DNA of 14,605 bases from Nitrospinae bacterium RIFCSPLOWO2_12_FULL_45_22 (GTDB taxonomy: Bacteria; 2-12-FULL-45-22): positions 1 through 14,605 of the forward strand of contig MHDQ01000115.1 in the NCBI GenBank assembly GCA_001803565.1, read 5' to 3'. The position numbers were made by a program, and so were the translations under genes. The notes beneath the pieces were generated by a model. It searched no databases. It saw only the letters and a list, made by a program, of their open reading frames with translations, and was not told the DNA's origin. This document shows positions 7,353-14,605 of the stretch, piece by piece (the stretch's first letter is position 1; the number at the start of each line of letters is the position of its first letter).

Positions 7353-7411
7353 TTTATACTCAAATTTGAACTTTTTATATCATCCATCTCGATCTGAGTC
7401 AAGAGAGATGT

Positions 7412-7753
7412 TCAGATATCCAGATCATCTAGGGGACTCAACACGCCCCGCCCCCCTTGTTGCAGCACATGGGTATATATCATGGTTGTAGCGACATCCT
7501 TGTGGCCAAGCAAGGCTTGTATTGTTCTAATGTCAGTGCCTCGTTGCAGGAGATGAGTGGCGAAACTGTGGCGGAAGGTGTGTGAGCTAATACGTTTAGT
7601 TAGGCCTGCCTTACCTACAGCCACCTTGATAGCCTTGTTGATAACACTGGGGTCAACATGATGTCGGCGTATTTTGCCGCTTCGGGGATCAGTAGCTAAA
7701 TTACGGGCGGGAAATACGTACTGCCAACTCCATCTTAATCGCCCGTACAGCAT
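7412..7753 (-). pseudogene. intI: Integron integrase IntI, C-terminal fragment
   Basis: This is the C-terminal half of an integron-type tyrosine recombinase. It reads [19 protein letters not shown] and then RRHHVDPSV, strings characteristic of IntI and absent from XerC/D. The box II region follows: [12 protein letters not shown] (H58 and R61 of this frame), LLGHKD (H84) and nucleophile Y93 in MIYTHV, ending [13 protein letters not shown] as integron integrases do. It overlaps the N-terminal fragment in another frame over 7701-7753. The apparent start ATG 7753 is an accident of frame, since the first seven residues come from out-of-frame N-terminal codons. On its own it lacks the first catalytic arginine, so it should be inactive. 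Confidence 0.92.
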
Positions 7754-8048
7754 TGATTTCTTCGCCTAGCTGCTTTTTGAACACCTGTTTGTATAGGAAA
7801 ACCAGGGCATTCATGGTCTGATTCTGCGTGGATGGTGACACATCCTTATCCACTGCTAGATGAGTCAGGAAAGATTCGATCTTAGCCTCACCATTCATTA
7901 ACTCCTCTCGGCATGTCATCCGATGATACTTTATATACCGCTTAATCCAGTCACAGTATATTCGTTCCGTATGGATCGAGTAGTGATGTAGCCGCATCAC
8001 ATCCCGTACTTCGTCTAACAGTTTCCTCTTCTTTTTGGGTATTGACAT
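7701..8048 (-). pseudogene. intI: Integron integrase IntI, N-terminal fragment
   Basis: This is the N-terminal core-binding (SAM-like) domain of the same integrase: KLLDEVRDVMRLHHYSIHTE (9-28), then YCDWIKRYIKYH and FLTHLAVDKDVSPSTQNQ. After INAVRAIK (about residue 105) the reading frame leaves the IntI sequence and stops nine residues later. Intact integron integrases have roughly 120 more residues between this point and WSWQYVFPA. They carry the box I arginine, the beta-strand lysine and part of the integron-specific insertion. The join lies near 7733-7738 and shifts the frame. The ATG at 8048 is preceded by AAGGCG about eight bases upstream. The gene diverges from the cassettes, as usual. 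A sequencing or assembly error cannot explain the missing 120 residues unless a read misjoin occurred. Confidence 0.9.
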
Positions 8049-8072
8049 ATTTTTTTCGCCTTGATATATAAT
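8042..8072 (+). promoter_or_regulatory. Cassette promoter (Pc) candidate
   Basis: TTGACA (8042-8047) and TATAAT (8067-8072) both match sigma-70 consensus perfectly and are 19 bases apart. The orientation is towards the cassettes. The -35 hexamer overlaps the intI start codon on the other strand, so expression of the cassettes and of intI would interfere. A transcript would start near 8079 and run through attI into cassette 1. The spacer is two bases longer than the optimum, which should weaken the promoter. Confidence 0.6.
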
Positions 8073-8173
8073 GGTATGAAAGTGGTATGATAATGGCCTA
8101 GATAAAATTTGCCTGAAAAGAGACCTAATATCATTATATCAAGGCAAATTTTCTTGTCAATCAATGGTTAGGC
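8049..8173 (+). other. attI-like recombination region
   Basis: This stretch lies between intI and the first cassette. It contains the core site GTTAGGC (8167-8173), an exact GTTRRRY; recombination would cut after its G, so cassette 1 begins at 8168. Two nested inverted repeats lie upstream: GCCTTGATATA (8058-8068) with TATATCAAGGC (8135-8145), and AAAATTTGCC (8104-8113) with GGCAAATTTT (8143-8152). They are perfect over 11 and 10 bp. The repeats may be integrase binding sites, or RNA hairpins in the Pc leader; the inner stem ends in TTTT followed by CTT and could attenuate transcription. Confidence 0.65.
8065..8095 (-). promoter_or_regulatory. Possible intI promoter (Pint)
   Basis: On the minus strand TTATCA (about 8088-8093) and TATATA (about 8065-8070) are 17 bases apart and lie just upstream of the intI ATG. 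Both hexamers are only moderate matches. The direct repeat TGGTATGA (8072-8079 and 8083-8090) lies between them, 11 bases apart, and could be a protein binding site. No LexA-type CTG-N10-CAG box was seen. Confidence 0.3.
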
Positions 8174-8191
8174 TGGTCAATAGGACAAGCG

Positions 8192-8638
8192 ATGGAGTCA
8201 GCCAGACGCAAAAACGCAGGGGAGTGGGAGATCATGGATTACGAGATCTGGATGTTCCGGGCTCTCAGAAACCGGAAACTGCCTGTAGAAATGGCAGGAC
8301 GACCAGAATGGCAATACCTACGGAATGCCCTGACGGAGGCCATTGTCCTTCACACTCGAATTCTTGTGGAAATACTTCTTTCAAGAGGTGGAAGACCAGA
8401 CGACATCCAGCTCAAGCGTCTACTGCCATCATTCGCGTCAGACCATCTTCTGAGGCTCAAAACGGAATACGGGACAAGATCGGAGAAGAACTCCCCCTGC
8501 TGGAGATTCAACAAGCTCTTGGCACACGCAACGACCGAAAGATCCACCTGCCACGACTACAGCGATGCCATCAGGCAGCTGGACCCGATCATCGAACAGA
8601 TTTTGGCAGAGGTGGCATCGGTTCGCCCGATTCCGTGA
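8192..8638 (+). CDS. Hypothetical protein, integron cassette 1
   Basis: Function unknown. The 148-aa product is mostly helical and soluble, with no signal peptide or membrane segment. Conserved-looking parts are LRNALTEAIVLHTRILVEIL (about 43-62), then PDDIQLKRLLP and FNKLLAHATTER (about 106-117). That pattern, an asparagine/alanine-rich helix followed by a late LAH-TTER helix, recalls small HEPN-like helical proteins often found as single genes in environmental genomes. No RX4-6H motif is clear, so this is only a suggestion. ATG 8192 has AGGA at 8183-8186; ATG 8234 (start MDYEIWMF) also has a purine-rich GGGAG and may be the real start. A longer overlapping frame (8164-8670) crosses the attI core and is rejected. 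It is the sole gene of its cassette and is followed 11 bases later by attC1. Confidence 0.65.
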   Translation: MESARRKNAGEWEIMDYEIWMFRALRNRKLPVEMAGRPEWQYLRNALTEAIVLHTRILVEILLSRGGRPDDIQLKRLLPSFASDHLLRLKTEYGTRSEKNSPCWRFNKLLAHATTERSTCHDYSDAIRQLDPIIEQILAEVASVRPIP

Positions 8639-8647
8639 GACACAACA

Positions 8648-8742
8648 CCCTAACAACCACCTCAAGCTGACGGCTCGCCTGTCACAGCCCCTGCATCCGC
8701 AAGGCCTGCGCCAGGCGCCCGCAGCTTACGTGCACGTTATGC
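8648..8742 (+). other. attC site 1 (end of cassette 1)
   Basis: R'' is CCTAAC (8649-8654), complementary to the GTTAGG at the start of this cassette (8167-8172). L'' is CAAGCTGAC (8663-8671), and L' is GCAGCTTA (8721-8728). AAGCTG-C pairs with GCAGCTT, leaving one unpaired A, the extrahelical base typical of attC. An inner stem CGCCTG (8676-8681) with CAGGCG (8712-8717) forms the variable terminal structure. R' is GTTATGC (8736-8742), where cassette 2 joins. Confidence 0.88.
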
Positions 8743-8800
8743 CACCAAAAGCCCTATCGCATTACAAGAACGTATTGTCCGAAAAAAAACTACCACTATG

Positions 8801-8829
8801 TTGAAAAGTGTATCACTGGGTGTTATAGT
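8801..8829 (+). promoter_or_regulatory. Promoter of higBA, probably leaderless
   Basis: TTGAAA (8801-8806) and TATAGT (8824-8829) are separated by 17 bases. The expected start of transcription, about seven bases after the -10, falls on the ATG of the toxin gene at 8836. There is no Shine-Dalgarno sequence in front of that ATG. A small GTGTATCAC element (8808-8816) inside the spacer could be an antitoxin operator, but this is weak. Confidence 0.6.
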
Positions 8830-8835
8830 TTAAGC

Positions 8836-9204
8836 ATGAAAGAGTTAATGACAAAACATTTTTCAAAATGGGCATCCAAACAGAAAATTCCAAATAATGA
8901 ACTTGCCGTTGCCTTGGCAGAAGTTAAGGCCGGGAATTTCGAGGCAAACCTTGGTGGTCACATTTACAAAAAGAGAATCTGTTTTGAAGGGCAAGGCAAA
9001 AGTGGCGGTGGACGAACGATTATTTGCTACAAAAAAGATGATAGAGCCATTTTCATTCATGGCTTTGCCAAAAACGAAAAATCGAATTTGTCTCAAAAGG
9101 AACTTAATGCCTTCAAAGAATTAGCAAAAATTTTGCTTAGACTGTCGTCAGAAGAAATAACAATAGCCATAGAAAATGGAGATTTTATTGAGGTGAAATC
9201 ATGA
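8836..9204 (+). CDS. higB: HigB-2/RelE-family toxin
   Basis: Predicted ribosome-dependent mRNA endonuclease toxin of a type II toxin-antitoxin pair. The 122-aa product has the signature of the HigB-2/YgjN branch of the RelE superfamily (Pfam RelE, PF06296). This includes GQGKSGGGRTIICYKKDDRA (52-71), IFIHGFAKNEKSNLSQKEL (72-90), and a C-terminal helix with FKELAK. The alternative start ATG 8848 would remove four residues. The 3' end overlaps the antitoxin gene by ATGA, so translation is coupled. Toxin-first order is characteristic of higBA. The gene is AT-rich compared with the flanking cassettes. Such pairs are the commonest genes with their own promoter in integron arrays, where they are thought to prevent cassette loss. 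Confidence 0.85.
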   Translation: MKELMTKHFSKWASKQKIPNNELAVALAEVKAGNFEANLGGHIYKKRICFEGQGKSGGGRTIICYKKDDRAIFIHGFAKNEKSNLSQKELNAFKELAKILLRLSSEEITIAIENGDFIEVKS

Positions 9205-9506
9205 GAGAATCCATTGCAAAATCAATCACAAGCACAGTCAAAGACTTAAATAAAAGTGGATTGGTAGATGATATCACTATGAAAAATATTGAAAATCTCT
9301 GCCTTCCAGAGATACATGAATATAGTCCGGAAAAAATTGTTTCCATAAGAAAAAAATTCAGACTGAGCCAAGCCGCTTTAGCCAGCATTTTTAATATTAG
9401 TCCTTCAACCGTTCAAAAATGGGAACAGGGCAACAAAAAACCTACAGGTGCTTCAAAGAAATTATTAGATATTATGGAAAGAAAAGGCCTGGAAGCACTC
9501 ATCTAA
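9201..9506 (+). CDS. higA: HigA-type XRE-family antitoxin
   Basis: DNA-binding antitoxin that neutralises the preceding toxin and probably represses the shared promoter. The 101-aa product has an N-terminal region (1-48) that probably contacts the toxin, and a C-terminal helix-turn-helix. The latter is IVSIRKKFRLSQAALASIFN (about 48-67) followed by recognition helix SPSTVQKWEQGNKKPTG (69-85), typical of HTH_3/XRE antitoxins of the HigA-2 type. GAGGTG at 9190-9195, five bases before the ATG, lies within the toxin gene. The stop codon is followed six bases later by the attC2 R'' element, so the pair fills the cassette. Confidence 0.87.
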   Translation: MRESIAKSITSTVKDLNKSGLVDDITMKNIENLCLPEIHEYSPEKIVSIRKKFRLSQAALASIFNISPSTVQKWEQGNKKPTGASKKLLDIMERKGLEALI

Positions 9507-9512
9507 AAAATA

Positions 9513-9601
9513 GCATAACAAATCAGTGGAGCGGACAGCGAGTAGCTCGGGGCCTTGCCGGGCATGCTCTTTGGCGCTGCCGCTCACTTCTGTCGATATG
9601 C
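9513..9601 (+). other. attC site 2 (end of cassette 2)
   Basis: R'' is GCATAAC (9513-9519), the exact complement of the cassette-2 start GTTATGC (8736-8742). L'' is AGTGGAGCGGACAGCG (9525-9540) and L' is CGCTGCCGCTCACT (9575-9588). They pair completely apart from an extra G and an unpaired A in the L'' strand, the usual attC asymmetry. The R' position reads GATATGC (9595-9601) instead of GTTRRRY, a change at the second base. Cassette 3 would start at 9596. Confidence 0.88.
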
Positions 9602-9642
9602 CGCTTAACTCGACGAAAGGATTACGGAACAAAGGAGAATAG

Positions 9643-10215
9643 ATGTCATTCAGCACGAAACTAATATACCTGCTCAAAAGCGACCCGCGCTTTGTGGACG
9701 ATGAAGGTGAACTCGTCCTTGCCGCTGTGCAAGACCGCGCGTGGAAAATTAACCGCGACCTTGTGACGTTGCTCCTTTCAGATAAAGAAATTAAGGCCAA
9801 GTTCTTCGATGAAATCGAAGGGCATTGGATTTTAAACCTCAACACTTTTATTGACTATATCGCTCAAAAGAATTTTCTGGATAACTCCTATACCCGCTTT
9901 CGCAATCGCATCGGGCTGACGATTGGCGGCAAATACCTGCGCGAGCGCGGCGAAGTGGCGCTGGTCTGGCCCTACAAGGACTGCGTGCTGGAAGGCGGGC
10001 AGATGAAGGAAGAAGAAAAGCGCAAGGAGATTTTTTTCAACGAAGTGCTGGCGCAGGATGAGATCAACCGCCTGCTCGACCCGAAAGTGTTGACTAACCT
10101 TGTACGCTACAAGGCAAAGGGCAAAGAGAAGGTAAAGGACTTCAAGCGCGATGAAAACGGCGTCATCCGCGAAAACCTGATTATCAAAGGCAAGAACAGA
10201 ACTATGTATACGTGA
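9643..10215 (+). pseudogene. mod: Type III methyltransferase Mod, N-terminal fragment
   Basis: This is the N-terminal part of the type III restriction-modification methyltransferase, which would both recognise the site and transfer a methyl group to adenine. Residues 1-185 match the family start: SDPRFVDDEGELVLAAVQDR (14-33), then FRNRIGLTIGGKYL and the run to ENLIIKGKN. In intact Mod proteins the latter leads within about 25 residues to IDPPYNTG. Here the sequence instead departs after KGKN near 10197 and stops at 10215. AAAGGAG (9631-9637) lies five bases before the ATG. This is the first gene of cassette 3 and has no promoter of its own that I can see. The missing segment carries the catalytic DPPY motif (motif IV). 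Confidence 0.88.
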
Positions 10216-10382
10216 TGAATGCTATGGATAAGGGAAAATATATTAAGGAAATAAATGGTGGGAAAACTGGAAGCATTAAAGTTTTTACACATACAAAATT
10301 TGATTGTCATAAGCTTGACCGCAAGGACAGAATAGAAAATAATTACAAAAAATCATTTGATAAAATTTTTATTTTAGATTGA
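10215..10382 (+). pseudogene. mod: Mod target-recognition fragment
   Basis: A 55-codon frame continues the broken methyltransferase. Read back through the first break in this frame it gives NYVYVMNAMDKGKYIKEING and then GSIKVFTHTKF, ending NNYKKSFDKIFILD. This resembles the central target-recognition region of type III Mod proteins, where GKYIK and DKIF strings recur. The N-terminal fragment lies in a different frame, and the C-terminal half in a third. The ATG at 10215 overlaps the TGA of the upstream fragment by chance (TGATG) and has no good ribosome binding site. The segment is strongly AT-rich: a hand count gives about 30% G+C over 10201-10260. Confidence 0.65.
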
Positions 10383-10402
10383 CGAATCCACAAGGAGGCT
10401 TA

Positions 10403-11227
10403 ATGAAACGAATCATCCCGCAGCTTCCTAAAGGATTTGTATCTATTGAATACACTCCAACAAAGGGTCGGAATAAAGGTCAGATTTATCGTGCTTACTT
10501 TATAGATCAATCACTTGTTGTTTGGTTCAGAGATTCAGCAAAGATGGAAAACGGCACATTAATAAAACTTATCAAGATGTCAAATCTCTGGATTGACAAT
10601 TTATTCCAAGGTATCGCTAAAGAAGGTTCTGTCGAACTAAAAGCTGGCAAAAAACCTGAGGCGTTATTGCAAAAAATTATAGAAATAGGATCAAAACCAG
10701 GTGACCTTATTTTTGATTATCACGTAGGGAGTGGAACTACATGTGCAGTGGCTCATAAATTGGGACGCAGATATGTTGGTATTGAACAACTCGATTACGG
10801 GAAGAACAATTGCGTTGTGCGGCTTCAGAACGTTATAAATGGTGACCAAACAGGTATTTCCAAATCCGTCAACTGGCAGGGCGGCGGAGATTTCATCTAC
10901 TGTGAACTGATGAAATACAACGAAGCCTTCATGGAGCGCATTCAAGCCGCCAAGACTAGCAAAGAACTCCTAAAAATCTGGCGCGAAATGGCGGAAGGTT
11001 CATTCTTGAATTGGTATGTCAACCCCGCAATGCCCGAAGAAGCGGTCAAGGATTTTGAAGAACTCGGCAAGGACGAGAACGGGCTTGAAAAGCAAAAACG
11101 CCTGCTGGCGGAACTGCTGGATAAAAACCAGTTGTACGTGAATCTCTCCGAGATAGACGACTCGCAATTCAACGTCAGCAAAGAAGATAAGGCGTTGAAC
11201 AAGGCGTTTTATGGAGACAACCGATGA
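10403..11227 (+). pseudogene. mod: Type III methyltransferase Mod, C-terminal half
   Basis: This is the C-terminal half of Mod, 274 aa from ATG 10403. It contains PKGFVSIEYTPTKGRNKGQI, the SAM-binding motif I as DYHVGSGTTCAVAHKLGRRY, EQLDYGKNN, and the conserved tail VNWQGGGDFIYCEL, then EGSFLNWYVNP and NKAFYGD. Beta-class methyltransferases place DPPY before motif I, and no DPPY exists anywhere upstream, so this half cannot methylate. AAGGAGG (10392-10398) stands four bases before the ATG. It may allow separate translation as a remnant, or the frame was once continuous through 10380. The open frame extends back to TTG 10379. The 3' end overlaps the next gene by ATGA. Base composition returns to about 48-50% G+C after roughly 10870. 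Confidence 0.88.
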
Positions 11228-11637
11228 GCGACCAGGACATCCGTTGGATACAGCGATACAATCATTATACTCAGGCGCTTGCTCAATTGACAAAATTCAT
11301 CGAAAAAGGTGAATTGAATGAGCTGGAAAAACAAGGGTTGATTCAGGCGTTTGAATATTCCTACGAATTGGCCTGGAACACTATCAAAGATTATTTCGAA
11401 GCCCAGGGCGAAACCGACATCCACGGCAGTCGCGACGCCTTTCGTTTGGCATTCAGACGAGGGCTGATTGAGGACGGCAAAACATGGATGGATATGATTA
11501 AGAGCCGCACTTTGACATCTCACACTTATAATGAAGACCTCGCCGAAGAGATTTCCACCGCAATCGTCAACAGGTATTTTTCAGAGTTTGTTGCGCTGCG
11601 GACTAAATTGCAAAATCTTAAGGATAAGAACTATTGA
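11224..11637 (+). CDS. hepT: HepT-like HEPN protein (HI0074 family)
   Basis: Member of the nucleotidyltransferase substrate-binding family (HI0074, Pfam PF08780), a four-helix HEPN relative. The 137-aa product contains SRTLTSHTY (94-102), an exact RX4HXY motif (R95, H100, Y102), the RNase motif of HepT toxins. In the studied MntA-HepT systems the partner nucleotidyltransferase adds AMP to the tyrosine of this motif and silences the toxin; the tyrosine is present here. The start overlaps the mod stop by ATGA and the stop overlaps the next gene by TGATG, so all four genes are translationally linked. The family could also act without RNase activity, so the toxin role is inferred from the motif. 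Confidence 0.87.
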   Translation: MSDQDIRWIQRYNHYTQALAQLTKFIEKGELNELEKQGLIQAFEYSYELAWNTIKDYFEAQGETDIHGSRDAFRLAFRRGLIEDGKTWMDMIKSRTLTSHTYNEDLAEEISTAIVNRYFSEFVALRTKLQNLKDKNY

Positions 11638-11969
11638 TGCGCCGTTTCGGGCTTGAAGAAAACGATATACAGGCCATTTGCTCCGTATTTGCCCGCCATC
11701 CGCAGGTGGATCAAGCGATCCTGTACGGCTCGCGCGCCAAAGGGGATTACAAAAACGGGTCGGATATTGACTTGACCCTGCTGGGCAGCGAAGACCTGAC
11801 GCTAAAGGCGCTTTATCGCATCATGGACGACATCGACGATCTGCTTCTGCCCTACACGTTCGACCTGTCCATCTTTCAACACATCAGCGACCCCGATGTG
11901 ATTGACCACATCCGGCGCGTCGGCGTTGTGTTCTACGAGAAGGGCGAGGTCGTCCCTGAGCCGGCGTAA
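11637..11969 (+). CDS. mntA: MntA-like minimal nucleotidyltransferase (HI0073 family)
   Basis: Partner of the preceding HEPN gene; predicted to transfer AMP from ATP to it, as the antitoxin of an MNT/HEPN pair. The 110-aa product shows the polymerase-beta fold motif GSRAKGDYKNGSDID (31-45), exactly GSX10DXD, with metal ligands D44 and D46. A third carboxylate D76 lies in YTFDLSIF. All catalytic residues of the MNT family are therefore visible. An in-frame TTG one codon earlier (11634) is possible, but ATG 11637 overlaps the upstream stop in the common TGATG form. Res starts 11 bases after the stop. The product is soluble and single-domain. Confidence 0.88.
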   Translation: MRRFGLEENDIQAICSVFARHPQVDQAILYGSRAKGDYKNGSDIDLTLLGSEDLTLKALYRIMDDIDDLLLPYTFDLSIFQHISDPDVIDHIRRVGVVFYEKGEVVPEPA

Positions 11970-11980
11970 TAGGAAAAAAC

Positions 11981-14545
11981 ATGCCTGAGCAATTTCTGTA
12001 TGAACGTCTTGACGCGGCGTCCAGCATGGGCTTTCTCAAAAAGGAAGTCCCCGATAGCGTGGCGCAAAACCTGAACCCCAAATACGAACTGCGCCCCTAT
12101 CAGGTGGACGCGTTTGCGCGCTTTTTCCATTGCTATAAAAACGACTTTCCCAACAAAGCCTATCCCCTGCACTTGCTCTTCAACATGGCAACGGGGAGCG
12201 GCAAAACGCTCATCATGGCGGGGCTGATTCTCTATCTCTACGAGCAGGGCTGCCGCAATTTCCTGTTCTTCGTCAATTCTACCAACATTATCGAAAAGAC
12301 CAAAGACAACTTTCTCAACCCTGCCGGCATCAAGTACCTGTTCAATTCGGATATCAACATTGGCAACCGCCGCGTGCGCGTCACGCCAGTGGAGAACTTT
12401 GAAGCGGTCAATCCCGCCGACATCAACATCTGCTTCACCACGATTCAAAAACTCCACTCCGACCTGACCAGCGAAAAGGAAAACACCCTGACCTTTGAAG
12501 ACTTTCACAAGCATCGCGTTGTCTTGATTGCCGATGAAGCCCATCACATGAACGTCAAGACCAAGGCGCAAGGCGAACTGTTCGAGAGTTGGGAAAACAC
12601 CGTCGAGCGTATCTTTACGCAGAATGAACACAATCTCCTGCTGGAATTCACTGCCACGCACGATTACGCCACGCCCGCGATGGTGGAAAAATACCGCAAC
12701 AAGGTCATCATCCGCTACGACCTGCTCCAATTCCGCAACGACCGTTTTTCAAAGGATGTCGTCATCGTTCAATCGGATTTTGACCAGCGGGAGCGCCTCC
12801 TGCAAGCCTTGGTTCTCAGCCAGTATAAGCAACAAGTGGCGGCGAAATACCGCATCAACCTTAAGCCTGTGATTTTGTTCAAAGCCCAGCGCACCATCGC
12901 GCAGTCGCAGGAGAACAAAGCCGAATTTCACAAACTCATTGACGCTCTTACGGCAAAGCACATCGCCCGCATCCGCAAATCGAACATCCCGCTTGTTCAA
13001 CGCGCATTTCGGTTCTTTGACGAACACCGCATCAGCGACGAGCAACTGGTGGAACGACTGAAGCGGGAATTTCACCCTGATTTTTGCCTGTCGGTGAACG
13101 ACGAGAAAGAAAAAGAGAACTATCAAATTCTCGTCAACACGCTGGAAGATAATACCAACCGTATTCGCGCCATCTTCGCCGTGCAGAAACTGAACGAAGG
13201 CTGGGACGTGCTGAACCTGTTCGATATTGTCCGCTGTTACGAAGCGCGCGACACGGGCAGAGCAAAAATCGGCACAACCACGATATCCGAAGCGCAGCTT
13301 ATCGGGCGCGGGGCGCGTTACTTCCCCTTTGTTCTGCCGTCCAGTAATGACCGTTTCCGCCGCAAATTTGACGGCGACCTGGAACACGAACTGCGCGTGC
13401 TGGAAGAACTGCATTACCACAGCATCAACGACTCGCGCTACATTGCCGAAATTCGTCAGGCGCTCATCGAACAGGGCATGATGGACGAAGGCGAAGTGAC
13501 CCGCGAACTGAAACTGAAAGAGTCGTTCAAGAAAACGCAATTTTACAAGTATGGGATTGTATGGCTCAACGAACGCCGTCCCAAAGATTATCAGCGCGTC
13601 CGCTCCTTTGCCGATTTAGGCGTGAAGAAGCGAAATTACACCCACTTCATCGCCACAGGTCACGGCGGCGCGACCGTCGCGCTGGAGAACGGGGAAAAAG
13701 GCTTGGTGGTGAAAGACGAAACCCGCCAGGACGTGAAGGTGCAGGACATCGAGCGCAACATTATTCAATCCGCCCTCGCACGCAATCCGTTTTTCACCTT
13801 TGCAACGCTCAAACGCTATTTCCCCCATCTTCCATCCGTGCGCGACCTTATCGCATCGGACGATTATCTCGGCGGACTGGAAATCACCTTTCAGGGCAAT
13901 GTGCAAGGGCTGGACGAAAACCGACTTGAAAAACTCGCCGCGATGTCAGGCTTGCTGAGTCAAATCGAATCAGAAATTCGCGCCAACGTCACCGACTACG
14001 AAGGCACGCGCGACTTCAGGCGCGATTGGGTGCGTGAAGTCTTCAAGGACAAAGTTTTGAAATTCGACCCTCAGAATCCGCGCGCCGCAGACGACGCACA
14101 GTTTGAGCATTTCGTTTCTGCCAAAGATTGGTTTGCCTTCAACACCGTTTATGGCACAAGCGAAGAAAAAGCCTTTGTGCGTATGCTGGACAGGCAAATG
14201 CAAAAACTACAAACGCAATACGAGCAAATCTATCTTCTGCGCAATGAAGGGCATTTTGCTATCTACAACTATGCCGATGGTCAAGCCTTTCAACCAGATT
14301 TTGTATTGTTCCTGCGCGAGAATAGCGGCGAATTGCTTATTTACCAGCTTTTCATCGAGCCGAAAGGGAGACACCTCAAAGAGCATGACCGCTGGAAAGA
14401 GACTTTTCTGAAAGAAATCACCAGCGAGTTTGGCGGTAGACCGCTGACGTTTGAAGACAAGAAATACCGCTTGATTGGCGTGCCGTTCTACAACAACGAA
14501 GACGAAAATCAATTCAGGACAAGCCTTGAGTCTGTGTTGAATTAG
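11981..14545 (+). CDS. res: Type III restriction endonuclease, Res subunit
   Basis: ATP-dependent translocase/endonuclease that cleaves DNA when two Mod-Res complexes meet; it normally depends on Mod for site recognition. The 854-aa product is complete. Superfamily 2 helicase motifs in order are ATGSGKT (70-76, Walker A), DEAHH (185-189, Walker B), EFTATHD (222-228, motif III), NEGWDV (405-410) and SEAQLIGRGARYFPF (436-450, motif VI). The C-terminal nuclease has QPDFVLF (D773) and FIEPKGRHLKEHDRWKETF (E793, K795), the usual PD-EXK of the family. ATG 11981 follows AGGA at 11971-11974. With mod broken, Res has no DNA-recognition partner in this window and is probably inert unless Mod is supplied from elsewhere. 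Codon use is GC-rich and unlike the left half of the window. Confidence 0.96.
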   Translation: MPEQFLYERLDAASSMGFLKKEVPDSVAQNLNPKYELRPYQVDAFARFFHCYKNDFPNKAYPLHLLFNMATGSGKTLIMAGLILYLYEQGCRNFLFFVNSTNIIEKTKDNFLNPAGIKYLFNSDINIGNRRVRVTPVENFEAVNPADINICFTTIQKLHSDLTSEKENTLTFEDFHKHRVVLIADEAHHMNVKTKAQGELFESWENTVERIFTQNEHNLLLEFTATHDYATPAMVEKYRNKVIIRYDLLQFRNDRFSKDVVIVQSDFDQRERLLQALVLSQYKQQVAAKYRINLKPVILFKAQRTIAQSQENKAEFHKLIDALTAKHIARIRKSNIPLVQRAFRFFDEHRISDEQLVERLKREFHPDFCLSVNDEKEKENYQILVNTLEDNTNRIRAIFAVQKLNEGWDVLNLFDIVRCYEARDTGRAKIGTTTISEAQLIGRGARYFPFVLPSSNDRFRRKFDGDLEHELRVLEELHYHSINDSRYIAEIRQALIEQGMMDEGEVTRELKLKESFKKTQFYKYGIVWLNERRPKDYQRVRSFADLGVKKRNYTHFIATGHGGATVALENGEKGLVVKDETRQDVKVQDIERNIIQSALARNPFFTFATLKRYFPHLPSVRDLIASDDYLGGLEITFQGNVQGLDENRLEKLAAMSGLLSQIESEIRANVTDYEGTRDFRRDWVREVFKDKVLKFDPQNPRAADDAQFEHFVSAKDWFAFNTVYGTSEEKAFVRMLDRQMQKLQTQYEQIYLLRNEGHFAIYNYADGQAFQPDFVLFLRENSGELLIYQLFIEPKGRHLKEHDRWKETFLKEITSEFGGRPLTFEDKKYRLIGVPFYNNEDENQFRTSLESVLN

Positions 14546-14605
14546 GCGAGACAAACGCAGTAAAGTTCATTGTGCAAATCTTGAAAGGCAAAAGGCGGCA
14601 TAACA
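14546..14605 (+). other. Start of attC site 3, truncated by window end
   Basis: The last 60 bases hold no gene. GCATAAC (14598-14604) repeats the R'' element of attC2 exactly. Its complement, GTTATGC, matches the cassette-3 start GATATGC (9595-9601) at all but the second base. The rest of the site lies beyond the window. Confidence 0.65.

Follow-up and report, generated by a model that had tools for sequence, protein, structure and literature searches.

The window, a stretch of 14,605 nt, comprises the whole of contig C115 from a genome of 3.67 Mb in 321 contigs. No contig overlapping it was found among the contigs of the bin. Its right half carries, in this order, a split IntI gene, an open reading frame, a RelE/HTH gene pair and a type III restriction-modification (R-M) segment. 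The IntI pseudogene (7412-8048, minus strand) consists of an N-terminal part (7701-8048) and a C-terminal part (7412-7753), which match positions 1-94 (92.5 bits) and 211-315 (172.4 bits) of TIGR02249, respectively. The middle of the protein, about 115 aa, has been deleted. The first cassette encodes a protein of 148 aa (8192-8638) without a match in Pfam, NCBIfam or PADLOC. The second cassette encodes a RelE-type toxin (8836-9204, plus strand; PF06296, 134.8 bits) and an HTH antitoxin (9201-9506, plus strand; PF01381, 30.5 bits). RelE/HigA pairs 40-48% identical to it were observed in L019 (8955-9610) and L050 (5426-6081), located downstream of an R-M cassette with further attCs present. The R-M segment of the window thus stands in an array, preceded by an IntI pseudogene and two cassettes. 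Elsewhere in the same genome, two full-length IntI (C243, C304), many IntI fragments and 51 attC matches at E <= 1, scattered over many contigs, were detected. The organism is therefore rich in integron cassettes, given the attC matches and the two IntI. Contigs with this integron content include C261, C304, C17, C140, C216 and C206.

The attC sites were located with two covariance models. R1 was derived from eight attCs, all of resistance-plasmid integrons, and is independent of the window. The broader model R2 included the second attC of the window in its training, while the first lay outside the training set. A preceding scan for R''/R' pairing and folding barely separated real from shuffled sequence (156 versus 145 matches) and was dropped, for which reason the covariance models were adopted. 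The first cassette is closed by attC1 (8648-8742, plus strand), which scored 27.6 bits with R2 (E 4.1e-6) in a scan of 7400-14605. A preliminary description of the window had proposed an attC-like site just before mod. This site, attC2 (9513-9601, plus strand), proved to be a real attC, found by the plasmid-only model R1 with 34.3 bits (E 4.4e-6 over 924 kb); with R2, in whose training set it is contained, it reached 50.8 bits. Its R' box reads GATATGC (9595-9601), GAT replacing the GTT core. The R-M cassette has its left boundary at this R', where the cut is expected between 9595 and 9596. The covariance scan that had been recommended for the operon was conducted over 7400-14605 with filters off and yielded no internal attC in 9602-14605 (best about 7 bits, E >= 2.5). 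Rfam families gave no match in the window.

The R-M segment (9596-14605) measures at least 5.0 kb and comprises mod, HEPN, MNT and res. The mod gene (9643-11227, plus strand) is broken and was recognised by PF12564, PADLOC MTase_III and comparison with 33 relatives. It is followed by a gene for a HI0074/HepT-like HEPN protein (11224-11637, plus strand; PF08780, 146.1 bits; TIGR01987, 95.4 bits at a cut-off of 55.8), the Rx4HxY motif of which is intact (RTLTSHTY). The adjoining MNT nucleotidyltransferase (11634-11969, plus strand; PF18765, 66.0 bits) retains its GSx10DxD motif. The two adjacent genes with these motifs show the architecture of HepT/MntA, a type VII toxin-antitoxin system, and of HI0074-type pairs. 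The window pair differs from HepT/MntA in belonging to the HI0074 branch and in being embedded within an R-M operon; with 20.0 and 39.1 bits it does not reach the cut-offs of 60 set by NCBIfam for HepT and MntA. It may act as a toxin-antitoxin module against cassette loss, or as an added defence. The res gene (11981-14545, plus strand) encodes 854 aa (PF04851, 106.4 bits; PADLOC REase_III, 485.8 bits). Its frame is intact, and the Walker A (GSGKT), DEAH and PD...EPK motifs are present. Beyond its stop, the contig ends eight bases into the cassette's own attC (14598-14605, plus strand), which retains the R'' GCATAAC (14598-14604) and the next base.

Among known systems, EcoP15I (PDB 4zcf) and the Mod structure 6k0w resemble the intact relatives of this operon in the DPPY motif of Mod and in a Res with helicase and PD-(D/E)xK motifs. 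The Mod of L002 matches 6k0w (2.8e-38) and the EcoP15I Mod (7.7e-28); a PDB sequence search with Res gave no match. In contrast to EcoP15I-type systems, the operon is here an integron cassette with a variable slot between mod and res, and the Mod of the window is broken.

The mod gene of the window is divided into two open reading frames. The first encodes residues 1-185 (9643-10215), the second the C-terminal part (10379-11227). Alignment to the relatives covers residues 1-185 and resumes at about 350-460, the AT-rich part lying in other frames. This middle (10196-10840) has a GC content of about 30-40% versus about 50% in the flanks, as expected for a swapped specificity region. None of the three frames of mod in the window contains the DPPY motif, whereas it is present in 32 of 33 relatives near residue 206, the exception being a fragment of 80 aa. 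The Mod of the relatives is a single protein of about 570-690 aa; one further copy ends early, after DPPY. Type III Res depends on Mod for DNA recognition. Since Mod is broken, the window copy should not restrict. The system is of type III R-M descent and is not predicted to work here; the R-M function has probably been lost, with the frames of res and of the HEPN/MNT pair remaining open. The preliminary description had recorded a four-gene defence module. In that count mod stood as one gene; it is broken, and its inactivation had escaped notice. The loss of the IntI middle, the mutated R' core and the Mod without its catalytic motif give the cassette the appearance of a fossil.

The broken Mod may instead stem from faulty assembly, in which mod alleles with conserved ends in common and differing specificity regions were joined into a chimera; the true cassette would then have an intact Mod. 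The break sits at the junction of a conserved segment with a variable, AT-rich region, and the source is a MAG of 321 contigs, in which such alleles assemble poorly. However, no close match to the missing piece occurs elsewhere in the bin, and signs of decay are visible in IntI and attC2 of this contig as well, in agreement with a real loss. An assembly error is accordingly regarded as rather unlikely. An uncultured Caldilineaceae (L028, 1592-12616) carries four tandem mod genes, one of them cut short, followed by one res. Their ends are conserved and their middles differ, as if a single Res served several specificities.

Relatives with a Res identity of 82-91% contain the same mod-res operon with the same edges in unrelated surroundings in five phyla (Hydrogenedentota, Bacteroidota, Spirochaetota, Chloroflexota and Thermodesulfobacteriota). 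The cassette sizes are about 4.6-5 kb. The left edge was compared with L002 (Hydrogenedentota), L003 (Bacteroidota), L039 and L033 (Spirochaetota) and L007 (Calditrichota). DNA similarity starts at about 9579-9601, the R' end of attC2, and the sequence further upstream differs. An attC directly before mod was detected by R2 in L002 (440-493) and L039 (5646-5717), and the first bases of contig L003 are CGTTATGCCGC. In 10 of 31 operons, an R'-like box (GTTATGC, GTTGGGC, GTTGGGT or GTTAACC) precedes mod by 43-50 nt.

At the right edge, a tail after the res stop ending in GCATAA or a close form is common to L002, L003, L006, L009, L036, L039 and L045. The preliminary description had read GCATAAC after res as the R'' of another attC. 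The heptamer is present at 14598-14604, the res stop ending at 14545, and occupies a homologous position in L002, L003, L006, L039 and L045. The sequence between the res stop and the end of GCATAACA is found again in relatives of other phyla; GCATAAC is therefore not a chance heptamer. The attC continues after res in L003 (4721-4787) and L006 (3128-3179) according to R2. A diverged group with 62-66% Res identity, mostly Thermodesulfobacteriota, carries a different attC type directly after res, identified by the independent model R1 in L019, L050, L027 and L043 and by R2 in L015. Against the cassette reading, two complete, intact attCs around the operon were present on no single contig; in each example a full attC is paired with a site that is partial, truncated or at a contig end. 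All copies except some reference-like records originate from MAGs, in which errors of binning or assembly may have occurred. Res relatives were absent from viral contigs, and the 172 plasmid records with Res relatives are all below 60% identity. In the same phylum, the search covered one other genome and gave no match.

The first bases of an integron cassette must pair with its own R''. In the window, the start GATATGCCGC (9595-9604) and the end GCGGCATAAC (14595-14604) pair at 9/10 positions, and the one mismatch is the second base of the GTT core. The complementarity noticed earlier is thus present, with a count of nine over ten positions rather than six over seven. Among 30 operons in which both ends were read, exact pairing extends over 10 nt in L002 and L003, 9 nt in L021 and 7 nt in L043. 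None of 3000 shuffles reached 9 nt, and 1.2% reached 7. The 8 nt of L046 may have paired by chance.

These edges bear on the reading that a type III R-M operon of the ordinary chromosomal kind happens to be located beside an integron array, GCATAAC being a chance match. Related operons without attC-like edges do exist in genomes without detected IntI (e.g. L004, L008, L012, L014). Against a chance neighbourhood, the same edges recur in unrelated surroundings, an attC follows res directly in seven relatives and the complementarity of start and end exceeds that of shuffles, which renders such an arrangement extremely unlikely. The same operon with the same flanks outside integrons, named earlier as a refuting case, was not encountered; related operons outside integrons, for instance those of L004, L008 and L012, are without these edges.

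An intact IntI of 346 aa is encoded in L021, divergent from mod and about 290 nt from the cassette edge. This layout is the geometry of a first cassette. The attC after the L021 res scores better reversed (18.0 bits, minus strand), a point against the cassette reading. IntI was detected in the genomes of 9 of 14 cassette-edged copies, the window included, versus 1 of 9 others (p 0.03), and attC matches in 11 of 14 versus 3 of 9 (p 0.08). In the Res tree, the window falls into a clade with L036, L039, L002 and L033 (support 100/97), which spans copies from Thermodesulfobacteriota, Spirochaetota and Hydrogenedentota. The mixed phyla of this clade point to transfer between phyla. Over the whole Res tree, the cassette label requires 9 changes versus 10.6 in shuffles; there is no clear clustering, so that repeated gain is indistinguishable from an old state with losses. 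The earlier suggestion that the module had moved as one cassette is supported by the shared edges in unrelated genomes, the complementarity, the attCs after res and the IntI beside L021. The segment very probably represents a single integron gene cassette, 5.0 kb or more in length and bearing a type III R-M operon, preserved here as a fossil copy.

The slot between mod and res varies in content. It is empty in L002, L003 and L036, the gap between the two genes measuring 8 nt in L002 and L003. The HI0074/HepT-like HEPN and MNT nucleotidyltransferase occupy it in the window and in L054, and are absent from most relatives. In L039 (7704-8523), L033 (5628-6447) and L011 (552-1371), it encodes proteins of 84 aa and 191-196 aa, 82-88% identical among these copies. 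The larger one, without a match in Pfam or PADLOC, looks by eye like another nucleotidyltransferase (GGS...RTTQDSDI). Other contents are a PIN protein (L007), a ParE toxin (L010) and a DUF3800 protein (L004).

The segment could also have arisen from several former cassettes, fused once internal attCs had been lost. A size of about 5 kb with four genes is unusual, and the restricted occurrence of the HEPN/MNT pair would agree with such an origin. However, no trace of an attC exists within the window segment or in any related operon scanned with R2, L002 and L003 share the outer edges of the segment with mod and res 8 nt apart, and mod and res form a single functional unit. Fusion is thus very unlikely. 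The loss of internal boundaries, offered earlier as a source of the size, is disfavoured by the missing internal attC and by slot-less relatives with the same edges. Growth by insertion, the other option given, is plausible for the HEPN/MNT pair between mod and res.

For working copies of a single cassette, the following course can be proposed. The folded bottom strand of attC would be the substrate of IntI, with cleavage at G|TT. The circular cassette would span TTATGCCGC... to ...GCGGCATAAC-attC and would insert at attI or at another attC. At the new site, Mod would methylate the DNA, and Res would cut unmodified phage DNA. It is on balance probable that a lineage of type III R-M cassettes of about 4.6-5 kb has been exchanged via integrons among at least five phyla. 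Its members would keep a constant edge 43-50 nt upstream of mod, with a toxin-antitoxin-like slot of exchangeable content separating mod from res, and would have been split and missed by surveys with a 4-kb limit.

Integrons are usually described as collectors of small single-gene cassettes, and in recent work they figure as libraries of compact phage defences. A two-subunit restriction system with a gene pair, moving as one cassette across phyla, would raise the size and the complexity of integron cargo. R-M genes and anti-phage systems in integron cassettes are already known (PMC4176335; PMC12444791; PMC9668308). Like the present segment, known defence cassettes consist of attC-bounded defence genes in arrays, and movement of R-M genes by integrons has been reported; the present segment differs in that a type III system in full, together with an additional gene pair, occupies a single cassette of about 5 kb. 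Searches of open-licence papers gave no description of a type III R-M integron cassette; in these papers, type III cassettes with several genes, of such a length and spread over phyla, seem to have gone unreported. In integron surveys, attCs form a cluster when their spacing stays under 4 kb (PMC9668308). With about 4.6-5 kb, the present cassettes exceed this limit and would therefore be split by standard surveys. This points to a blind spot in rules based on attC distance, by which larger cassettes would be missed.

Group II intron elements are located downstream of res in L036 (5462-6627, minus strand; RF02001, 130 bits). The sequence of L036 diverges at the cassette R'', and the intron elements start near there. 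attCs are known targets of group IIC introns, and the elements in L036 possibly belong to an attC-targeting intron.
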